64,000 nucleotides of DNA, from positions 3,952,175 to 4,016,174 of the forward strand of contig NZ_CP036425.1 in assembly GCF_007747445.1 (NCBI RefSeq). Direction: 5' to 3'. The notes under the pieces are model-generated. The model ran no database searches, was not told the DNA's origin, and saw only the letters and a program-made list of their open reading frames with translations. The stretch comes from Poriferisphaera corsica (GTDB lineage Bacteria > Planctomycetota > Phycisphaerae > Phycisphaerales > Phycisphaeraceae). This document shows, piece after piece, positions 29,523 to 32,414 of this stretch; the stretch's first letter is position 1, and every line of letters starts with the position of its first letter. A program made the position numbers and the translations under genes.

Positions 29523-30002
29523 AGGTACCCAATTTGTTAAGTGCGTAGATCGTAGTATTACTGAATCGTAGCGTGCAACAATAATGAATTGATAAACGGC
29601 AGCTTTATGGGTATCGGTTGAGCTAAATGGACGTGATCAAAAACTATTTATGACAAGTCGACCTATAAAAAACCATGCCACCGGTAGGGAGTCCGTATGG
29701 CATGGCGGAGGAGAAAGATCATATTTAGATGCCCAAATATCTAGGCATATCTGCAAAGCAGGATTGCATGACACTCTATTTTACGCGTTGCAATCGCAGC
29801 AAGTTCGCAGGAAACGGTATCAACTTAGTCATATTTTAACCAAAAATTACCTATTTTAAACAATCGATTCTGGGAAAGATCGACAAAAATGGGCAGTTTT
29901 TGTTAACACCGCCATAGGCAACCCAGTAATGACATTTATATGACATTACGAAGACAAACGGGGGTATACCGCATAATTACCACAAATGGGCAAGAGGAAT
30001 GA
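29523..30002. other. Intergenic region with a minus-strand terminator hairpin
   Basis: AT-rich DNA. A 69-codon plus-strand frame at 29650 is not credible because it runs through the terminator hairpin. No repeat was seen. Confidence 0.5.
29667..29705 (-). terminator. Terminator-like hairpin with an ACGGA loop
   Basis: Perfect arms CCATGCCA (29673-29680) and TGGCATGG (29698-29705) enclose a 17-base loop. On the minus strand it is followed by six T, and the loop contains UACGGAC. It may end read-through transcription from the 30 kb RNA. Confidence 0.65.
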
Positions 30003-30390
30003 TAAAAAAAATCAGCGAAGGGCCAGAGCCGTAGGGCAACGTGCCAGAGAAGATGACTGAATGCTAGAAGGCACCCGATCACTGATGCGACTGGCTTGAC
30101 ACACTAGAGTCCTTCGTCCGTGAAGCGACCGTTAGGCTGCCTGCGTTGAGGTTCCTGGGTTCTGGTGAAGAATCCGTTCCACCTTCGCTGAGCAATTCCA
30201 TAGCAGATAGAGCGTCCGATCTCTGTCTGCAGTTATTTCGTGCTACCTAGCGAAATCCGTTTTCGCAGGGGAGCTATATCGCTGTGGAGCGGTCCTTGCT
30301 CTACAGATGAAATAGGTCGCCTCGTCCGTGAGGCTCATGAATCGATAGATTGGAGATTGAAATGAATTGTCGGGATGCTGTCATCACGCC
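30003..30390 (-). ncRNA. Candidate CsrA/RsmA-sequestering RNA (CsrB/RsmZ-like)
   Basis: On the minus strand six hairpins follow one another, each with GGA in the loop: 30334-30319 (loop ACGGAC), 30303-30285 (AAGGACC), 30266-30250 (ACGGA), 30230-30203 (AUCGGACG, 10-pair stem), 30183-30164 (CGGA) and 30125-30112 (ACGGAC). Ten GGA triplets lie between 30327 and 30110. The 3' end is a U8 run (30011-30004); a 10-base stretch just before it (30012-30021) can pair perfectly with 30182-30191. ANGGA in apical loops is the recognition element of CsrA, and arrays of them define CsrB/RsmZ-type RNAs. It may be made with mraZ or from a promoter inside mraZ. No csrA gene is in the window. Confidence 0.6.
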
Positions 30391-30870
30391 CTAGCGACGC
30401 ATCATGCGTCTTGGGTTGGTGAGCAACGCAGGGTTCTGAGCAAGCCTTTCTTCAAGGCGTTTGAGCCATGCTTCACGACTGTGTACTTCGAGGTGATCCT
30501 TCACGCCGAGGAGTACGATGTCTGAAGGCAAGTTAGCTCGCTTGATCAGCGACTCTGGAAGCCTGACACGTCCCTGTTTGTCGATTTCCACACGGGTTGC
30601 AAGAGAAAAGAGAATACGTTCGTATTCGAGCAATTGATCCGCGTCGAGTTCTGAATCGTCGAGCTGTTGAGCTCGTTTTTCAAAATCCGACTCTGTGTAG
30701 ATGCTAAGTGATCCGCCTTCCGGGTCTAACTCGCCTGGTATGACGAATAGAGCGATAGCGTCGCCTTCTCCTGCGCCAGCGGCCCGTTGTATCTGGGCTC
30801 GGATTGGTGCTGGAATTGCAAGGCGATTTTTTGCATCAATTGAGTGCTCGTAGGTGCCGGTGAAAACCAA
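30391..30870 (-). CDS. mraZ: Transcriptional regulator MraZ (outside a dcw cluster)
   Basis: The 159-residue protein has two AbrB-like SpoVT folds: TGTYEHSIDAKNRLAIP at the N-terminus and VEIDKQGRVRLPESL in the middle. MraZ forms a ring and binds TGGGN repeats upstream of its own operon. The start is TTG at 30870, fixed by the conserved opening. mraZ normally heads the division and cell-wall cluster and is followed by rsmH; here a non-coding RNA region follows. An insertion (residues 30-60) is longer than in E. coli MraZ. Confidence 0.93.
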   Translation of the reverse strand: MVFTGTYEHSIDAKNRLAIPAPIRAQIQRAAGAGEGDAIALFVIPGELDPEGGSLSIYTESDFEKRAQQLDDSELDADQLLEYERILFSLATRVEIDKQGRVRLPESLIKRANLPSDIVLLGVKDHLEVHSREAWLKRLEERLAQNPALLTNPRRMMRR

Positions 30871-31409
30871 TATTTCAATCTTTCACACACAAAGGTGATA
30901 CGTGGGATATTACCCCACTACTCCCCACTCAGCAACACTTTTTCCCCCCAAACCCCCATTTTTTCTCAAGTTACGGAAGTAACCTTACCGATTGACCACC
31001 GTTCAATTAGTTGCGACACTCATGCCTTTCGATATAAATGCTGATATATCTTGATTTAACTTTATCCAGACACTTACTAAGTGCTCATACCTATATCAGT
31101 GGCCCACATATTCTCGGACTATGTATTTTCGATTAATGCATGGCATCACAAAGAAATGTAAATAGATGAAGTGGATAACCTGTCGGTTACTGGACCTTTG
31201 CATCGCTAAGCTGACATTGTCTAGGCAACGGATCTAAACCAGGCAAGTTAACTGAACTACATGTTCGTTTTTTATCAGATACAAATTGCCAGATGATAAA
31301 AGTTAAATGGACCAACATAACAATTGGGTCGATAACTGAATAGATTGAGGATACCAAGGCTGTAAGTCTCACCGCACAGGACGACAAGGGAAGAGGATCG
31401 CAGGAGTTG
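30871..31409. other. Divergent regulatory region between mraZ and the GGDEF gene
   Basis: It contains the MraZ-box-like repeats (30913-30958) near mraZ. The rest, up to the GGDEF start, is AT-rich without a recognised gene. Confidence 0.55.
30913..30958 (-). promoter_or_regulatory. MraZ-box-like TGGGG direct repeats
   Basis: Read on the minus strand, TGGGG occurs at 30917-30913 and 30927-30923, exactly 10 bases apart as in known MraZ operators. Two more TGGGG lie at 30950-30946 and 30958-30954, 8 bases apart. The sites are 43-88 bases upstream of the mraZ start, fitting autoregulation. Confidence 0.55.
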
Positions 31410-32414
31410 ATGAACCCAAAGATTCTAATCATTGAGGAAGAAGCACGCTTATTAGATCAGATGCGTGACGCACTCGAGCAACATTTTGGCTCGAGTTGTG
31501 TGCAATACTGCTGCAGTGTTTTTGAAGCCAAAGAACAGGATCTCCTTCACGTGGATCTTGTTCTCACAAGTATGGATTTGCCGGATGGCTCTGCACTTGA
31601 TGTCGTCGAAAATCTTCTTGTTAAACGAAACGATCTTCCTATCGTCGTCATGGCTGACGAAAGCATCATTGAGTTGGCCATACAAGCAATTAAACAGGGC
31701 GCTTACGATTGCATTATCCGTGGTGGCGATTGGCTAACAGGGCTACCATTCATTGTCGAAAAAAATCTCGCAGTCTACATCGTCAAGATGGAAAATGAAC
31801 AGTTACGAAAACGATTAGAGCGAACTCTCGATCAACTCCGTGTGAAAAATGAACAATTGGAGATGGTGGTTGAGAAACTAGAAGATATTGCAGCCACCGA
31901 TCCCTTAACGGGATTAGCGAACAGGCGTGCGTTTGCCAGAGCGCTAGGGCGTTACTTCGCTGCCTCAACGCGTGACGACACCGATCTTGCATGTATTATG
32001 ATTGATCTTGATGGATTTAAGGCGCTCAATGACACGCTGGGCCATCAGAATGGTGACAAGCTCTTACAACACACATCACGTGTTTTGCAGCAATTCCTAC
32101 GACGCTCCGACTTGGCCGGTCGATTCGGTGGTGATGAATTTGTTCTGCTTCTACCTAATACCAATCAACAACGAGCCATTCAGGTTGCAGAACGCATACA
32201 AGATGAATTCCGCAAAGAAATATCACGGCAAATCATGGATGAACATGATCAAATCAAGCTGTCCATGAGTATGGGTTTAGCGACTCTTCGTGTGTCAGAA
32301 GCAAAGTCCCCGCAAGCACTCATTGAATGTGCCGACAAAACACTCTATGCTGCAAAACGCTCAGGCAAAGATCAGTTACTCGTATATCAGCCGAAGCGTA
32401 CTGCGAAGGTATAA
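31410..32414 (+). CDS. GGDEF diguanylate cyclase with degenerate receiver domain
   Basis: 334 residues. Residues 1-120 form a receiver fold, but the phospho-acceptor position is Ser54 (VLTSMDLPDG) instead of Asp, and the conserved Lys is Arg104, so it probably cannot be phosphorylated. A coiled-coil linker (about 125-158) leads to a GGDEF domain with an intact active site at 240-244 and an inhibitory RxxD site (Arg231, Asp234) for c-di-GMP feedback. It should make c-di-GMP in the cytoplasm. ATG 31410 follows AGGAG closely. It is divergent from mraZ and the GGA-hairpin RNA. Confidence 0.92.
   Translation: MNPKILIIEEEARLLDQMRDALEQHFGSSCVQYCCSVFEAKEQDLLHVDLVLTSMDLPDGSALDVVENLLVKRNDLPIVVMADESIIELAIQAIKQGAYDCIIRGGDWLTGLPFIVEKNLAVYIVKMENEQLRKRLERTLDQLRVKNEQLEMVVEKLEDIAATDPLTGLANRRAFARALGRYFAASTRDDTDLACIMIDLDGFKALNDTLGHQNGDKLLQHTSRVLQQFLRRSDLAGRFGGDEFVLLLPNTNQQRAIQVAERIQDEFRKEISRQIMDEHDQIKLSMSMGLATLRVSEAKSPQALIECADKTLYAAKRSGKDQLLVYQPKRTAKV

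Follow-up and report, generated by a model that had tools for sequence, protein, structure and literature searches.

The window analysed here, a stretch of 64,000 nucleotides, belongs to the genome of Poriferisphaera corsica, a single contig of 4,291,168 bases. On its minus strand, a row of six GGA-loop hairpins lies between the mraZ stop codon and a U8 tract (30390 to 30004, Table 1), and ten GGA triplets fall within about 220 nt of this array region. Six GGA-loop hairpins, ten GGA in about 220 bases and a terminal U8 had been claimed in a preliminary description made from the sequence alone; the claim held, and all of these features are present where they had been placed. In a fold of the full 388 nt, five of the six hairpins had an open GGA and stem pairing probabilities of at least about 0.95. 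Hairpin 5 was weak, with a value of 0.16 for its stem, which competes with an enclosing stem, and its GGA was still 0.84 unpaired. Exact C-ANGGAN-G hexaloops are formed by two of the six hairpins; the other four depart from this form in the closing pair or the length of the loop.

Table 1 Features at the mraZ locus of P. corsica (positions in the window).
Feature	Position	Strand	Description
mraZ	30391..30870	-	Gene directly upstream of the array; Pfam MraZ 73.6 bits; 89% identity in congener ZRK32
Putative mraZ 3' RNA with GGA hairpins, U8 at end	30003..30390	-	Motif and folding analysis
Hairpin 1	30319..30334	-	gcctc-ACGGAC-gaggc; C-ACGGAC-G hexaloop; AUGGAU in ZRK32
Hairpin 2	30287..30301	-	gagc-AAGGACC-gctc; AAGGACC loop; AUGGAUC in ZRK32, stem altered with compensation
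Hairpin 3	30250..30266	-	gcgaaa-ACGGA-tttcgc; ACGGA loop
Hairpin 4	30203..30230	-	28-nt hairpin including agag-ATCGGACG-ctct at 30224-30209; loop AUCGGACG, CUAGGACG in ZRK32
Core, about 190 nt	30004..30193	-	Model R1: single strong match in most mraZ-bearing genomes of the host's family
5' strand of core-enclosing stem (UCAGCGAAGG)	30182..30191	-	Core alignment
Hairpin 5	30164..30183	-	ggtgga-ACGGATTC-ttcacc; GA-ACGGA(C/U)-UC, best-conserved loop of the core
Hairpin 6	30112..30125	-	cttc-ACGGAC-gaag; C-ACGGAC-G hexaloop; stem covaries in relatives
3' strand of core-enclosing stem (CCUUCGCUGA)	30012..30021	-	Core alignment
U8 tract	30004..30011	-	Candidate transcript end

A promoter-like site was not recognised on the minus strand near the array, nor was a classical close-range terminator recognised at the U8 tract on this strand; the U8 end is atypical. 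The position of the array behind mraZ is constant in relatives, which supports the earlier suggestion that it may be made together with mraZ; this remains an inference without transcript data. The further suggestion of a link to c-di-GMP is unsupported, as it rests solely on the adjacency of a divergent REC-GGDEF gene (31407-32414) in one genome.

A second element was noticed on the minus strand at 29665-29717, where the CU-rich CUUUCUCCUCCGCC is followed by a GC hairpin and a U tract; it resembles an independent small RNA that has an anti-Shine-Dalgarno motif. The element is also present at L006, L008, L010, L011, L015, L019, L023, L025 and L058, usually at most 0.4 kb behind the core. Of 61 genomes, 18 have exact matches to CUUUCUCCUCCGCC, most of them a single one, and some of these genomes are without mraZ.

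Enrichment over chance

Strict hairpins were defined as those with ANGGA in a loop of 5-8 and a stem of 4 or more. Five were observed in the P. corsica region compared to a mean of 0.08 in dinucleotide shuffles, and none of 300 shuffles reached five. The reverse strand of the array region contained no strict hairpin, and a scan of 1.66 Mb of the genome on both strands revealed the array as the sole cluster with more than three hairpins in 300 nt. The total folding energy of the region is ordinary (z -0.71) and, therefore, the signal is the motif array and not overall stability.

Conservation in relatives

The nearest relative among the compared genomes is Planctomycetota bacterium ZRK32 (CP066225.1; for mraZ see Table 1), whose array region is 84% identical to that of P. 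corsica. All six GGA are retained, with the loop changes ACGGAC to AUGGAU, AAGGAC to AUGGAU and AUCGGAC to CUAGGAC. A DNA search with the whole region matched only this congener and a 31-nt piece in G042, which led to the core described below.

Behind mraZ at 37 loci of the same order, 75 strict hairpins were found where 5.7 were expected (sd 2.5, maximum 16 in 300 sets), and the reverse strand of these loci contained 4. In 20 further genomes, 50 were found (3.9 expected), with 1 on the reverse strand. The 56 loci of the order combined have 126 ANGGA hairpins behind mraZ compared to 10.2 in shuffles, and these hairpins share a closing C-G pair (83%, shuffles 31%), the exact hexaloop (76%, shuffles 32%) and C or U as sixth loop base (88%, shuffles 45%). 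Any other loop triplet reached at most 26 in the 56 loci; the runners-up were GAU, GAC and CGG, some of which might be the same loops read in a shifted register. The GGA of the hairpins is 0.87 unpaired, compared to 0.40 for other GGA of the same sequences. The longest arrays comprise eleven (L024) and seven (L059) hairpins; many genomes have just one or two strict hairpins in the scanned stretch, which is few for a sponge. Owing to shared ancestry, the loci are less independent than the numbers suggest.

Across the order the stems differ while the loop is conserved far above chance, in the form of a C[ANGGA(C/U)]G hexaloop. This loop grammar equals the published CANGGANG hexaloop, stated to be a high-affinity CsrA/RsmE site (PMC4894983). 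The check on loops and stems in relatives that had been proposed with the preliminary description thus gave six GGA kept in ZRK32 and, across the order, a conserved loop on differing stems.

The neighbouring gene differs between groups. Beyond the class, 18 of 20 genomes have rsmH next after mraZ and there is no array; 9 hairpins were counted, 2 of them strict (3.9 expected). In other families of the class, rsmH lies within 700 nt in 31 of 40, with 43 hairpins in the stretch (17 strict). In f1-f5 of the order, rsmH was within 700 nt at none of the 51 loci, which have 121 hairpins (83 strict). It should be noted that rsmH was recognised solely by short protein motifs. In P. corsica, rsmH is far off (C1:1385226); the possibility that the array is an rsmH leader was rejected for this genome, there is no such hairpin around rsmH.

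A conserved core and a small gene in its place

The 3' half of the region contains a core that is conserved in the host's family. An enclosing stem, CAGCGAAGG/CCUUCGCUG, surrounds the hairpins GA-ACGGA(C/U)-UC and A(A/C)GGA(C/U), the latter with a covarying stem, and the block GCAUCAGUGAUCGG(A/G)UGC is nearly invariant. RNAalifold found only 14 pairs in the core and, therefore, covariation there is modest.

In family f6 (L013, L016, L031, L037), a conserved protein of about 70-78 aa with the pattern DWxPxxISDRxLxEL..RLGGxFAxI is encoded downstream of mraZ at the place of the core, and model R1 also matches these loci. Convincing relatives of the small protein were not found in Pfam or NCBIfam. 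The core RNA and the f6 gene stretches look homologous, and it is likely that one became the other. The spacing of the two conserved blocks is 61-69 nt in the host's family compared to a constant 64 nt in f6, and a shared reading frame was found neither within f1 nor between f1 and f6. Since the spacing takes all frames in the host's family, the core is non-coding there. In family f5 (L028, L029, L030), a different strongly conserved stretch, around GGGAGGGATCGCCCGTCGGAGCATGGTCGATGATCACGCCGCC, lies behind mraZ and is possibly another structured RNA.

csrA genes

Whether csrA is present had been named as a check of the preliminary description; indeed, P. corsica has two csrA genes. The gene for CsrA1 (C1:875360) is located after fliW (C1:874663) and before a flagellin gene (ATG at 875788). 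The leader of this flagellin gene contains the hexaloops gtttcATGGAAgaagc and gacaatcAAGGAGgattgtc, the second of which covers the ribosome-binding site. The hag leader of Bacillus subtilis similarly has a hairpin over the ribosome-binding site. Thus, at a classical site of CsrA control P. corsica has loops that follow the same grammar, which serves as an internal positive control. As a separate observation, the leader of a flgA-like gene (L145, C1:866723-866900) has several more GGA hairpins (ttcggcACGGATgccgaa and others) and is a likely CsrA target.

CsrA2 (C1:732996, about 65 aa) is divergent and matches solved CsrA/RsmE chains. Its N-terminal LTRR and its second conserved arginine region are retained, and the long C-terminal extension of CsrA1 is missing. 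The RNA-binding stretches read LTRR and NRRE in CsrA2, LTRR and HREE in E. coli CsrA, and LSRQ and HRKE in CsrA1. A csrA gene is present in 61 of 61 genomes, mostly in both kinds, and fliW in 59 of the 61, including P. corsica.

In the sister family f3, csrA2 is located directly behind the array in ten of eleven genomes (L042-L048, L050, L027, L033; absent at L049), mostly in convergent orientation and codirectional in three. The same neighbourhood was seen in three named MAGs (L038-L040). In G192 and G215, the sole csrA match is weak and of the CsrA2 type, the array is still present, and a strong intrinsic terminator lies between the array and the csrA2 leader. The reduced f3 genomes L044 (G192), L046 (G215) and L049 (G178) each have only one csrA match, a weak one resembling the CsrA2 type; the CsrA1 type thus seems to have been lost from them, which suggests that the function of CsrA2 does not depend on flagella.

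A strict association of arrays with CsrA2 was considered but not adopted. Strict hairpins persist in family f6 at about one per genome though four of five searched genomes have one csrA, and the value is 0.4 in other families of the class, where a single csrA predominates. Family f6 is without CsrA2, yet part of the region is kept there as the small coding gene.

Discussion

The motif, its enrichment, conservation and position, the presence of csrA and the neighbourhood of csrA2 are shown. We propose that the 3' part of the mraZ transcription unit encodes a CsrB/RsmZ-like RNA of independent origin that titrates CsrA, and consider this likely, with a probability of roughly 0.7. No transcripts, binding assays or knock-outs stand behind this reading, in which co-transcription with mraZ, binding by CsrA, titration in trans and the preference for CsrA2 are all inferred. 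In this model, transcription of mraZ would run into the array, and the RNA behind the stop codon would display several C[ANGGAY]G-type loops. These would be bound by CsrA dimers, most likely of CsrA2, the paralog without a FliW-type tail, and binding would lower free CsrA and relieve its mRNA targets. That some CsrA binds the hairpins is very likely, as inferred from the motif without binding data; titration in trans and the identity of the CsrA partner, also inferred, are less certain than binding itself. The preliminary description had called the region an analogue of a CsrA sponge, and the motif, its conservation and the presence of csrA support this, with binding and sequestration remaining inferred.

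The simplest account of its history, inferred and confounded by relatedness, starts from the mraZ-rsmH spacer. CsrA sites would have arisen early in the class within this spacer; rsmH would then have moved away in this order, and the hairpins would have stayed and multiplied as a constant partner of mraZ. A bolder reading, which we consider as likely to be wrong as right, is that the mraZ-rsmH spacer gave rise, independently and within Phycisphaerae, to a sponge class that operates alongside FliW: FliW would handle CsrA1 and flagellin, and the mraZ-linked RNA would handle the tail-less CsrA2, coupling the expression of a cell-division gene to a global regulator.

The main rival explanation is that CsrA binds the array but acts in cis only, on stability, folding or termination of the mraZ message, or on the csrA2 message where the two are codirectional, with no titration in trans. 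In its favour, the array is always behind mraZ, csrA2 is codirectional behind it in three f3 genomes, action in cis on mRNAs is the normal mode of CsrA, and the few sites seen in other families of the class are placed between mraZ and rsmH. However, the sites lie after the stop codon and away from any ribosome-binding site, up to 7-11 of them exceed the needs of cis control, and the strong terminator parts the array from csrA2 in G192 and G215. We regard a pure cis function as unlikely.

It is less likely still that the GGA loops are recognised by another RNA-binding protein, or by a UCC-bearing RNA, and resemble CsrA sites by convergence. CsrA binding of the array is indeed inferred without binding data, and many relatives have the conserved CU-rich element CUUUCUCCUCCGCC downstream; but loop, closing pair and sixth base all fit the CsrA site, csrA2 neighbours the array in f3 and the flagellin leader has the same loops. 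We give even less credit to the view that the core is coding, or once was, and the hairpins incidental. It is favoured by the homologous f6 stretch, which encodes a protein and is matched by R1, but the block spacing in all frames in the host's family and the lack of a frame shared between f1 and f6 argue against it, and hairpins 1-4 are outside the core. Chance or base composition, for which the ordinary folding energy might speak, is all but excluded, since the shuffle, reverse-strand, other-triplet, genome-wide and outside-class controls do not reproduce the array.

If the titration model is true, CsrA RNA sponges have more than one evolutionary origin, and the locus suggests that such a sponge can arise from an operon spacer after the downstream gene has left. 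The array is also a conserved and defined entry point to post-transcriptional regulation in Planctomycetota. In a review, joint action of FliW and an sRNA on CsrA in any species was stated to remain to be determined (PMC7652899), and the mraZ array makes this question directly testable.

Comparison with known systems

CsrA-soaking RNAs have so far been described almost only in gammaproteobacteria, and no CsrA-antagonising RNA of planctomycetes was found in the open-access literature searched. In an earlier survey (PMC4682653), planctomycetes were counted among probable users of FliW, and sRNA antagonists driven by BarA-UvrY were linked to gammaproteobacteria. Rfam models (CsrB, CsrC, RsmY, RsmZ and others) gave no match at the gathering score in the window or in 11 relatives; matches at a loose threshold were at chance level, all on the opposite strand, and were discarded.

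Like CsrB/CsrC of Escherichia coli, the array combines several GGA-loop hairpins in one putative RNA, with CAGGA(U/A/C)G-like loops on variable stems. Unlike them, it has no Rfam match and 6 instead of about 20 sites, is attached to mraZ, and occurs together with FliW and a second csrA paralog. With RsmY/RsmZ/RsmX of Pseudomonas it shares a similar site number and size and ANGGA in apical loops, but it is found in a different phylum and locus, and no independent promoter was recognised near it. Absence of fliW, a criterion for the BarA-UvrY-controlled Csr sRNAs of Gammaproteobacteria, does not hold here: fliW is present in nearly all genomes, the host included.

In the flaA leader of Campylobacter jejuni and the fimAICDHF leader of Salmonella, part of an mRNA titrates CsrA, as proposed here; the flaA leader also has GGA hexaloops, and FliW is present in Campylobacter. 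The array differs from both in its location in the mraZ 3' region rather than a leader and in its larger number of sites. P. corsica has an equivalent of the FliW-CsrA-hag system of B. subtilis, with fliW, csrA1 and flagellin in a row and GGA hairpins in the flagellin leader. There, however, the antagonist is a protein, whereas the array is located elsewhere and CsrA2 lacks the long tail. If confirmed, the array would be of the CsrB/RsmZ type by function, which is inferred, and separate from these RNAs by locus and, as far as can be judged from sequence, by descent.
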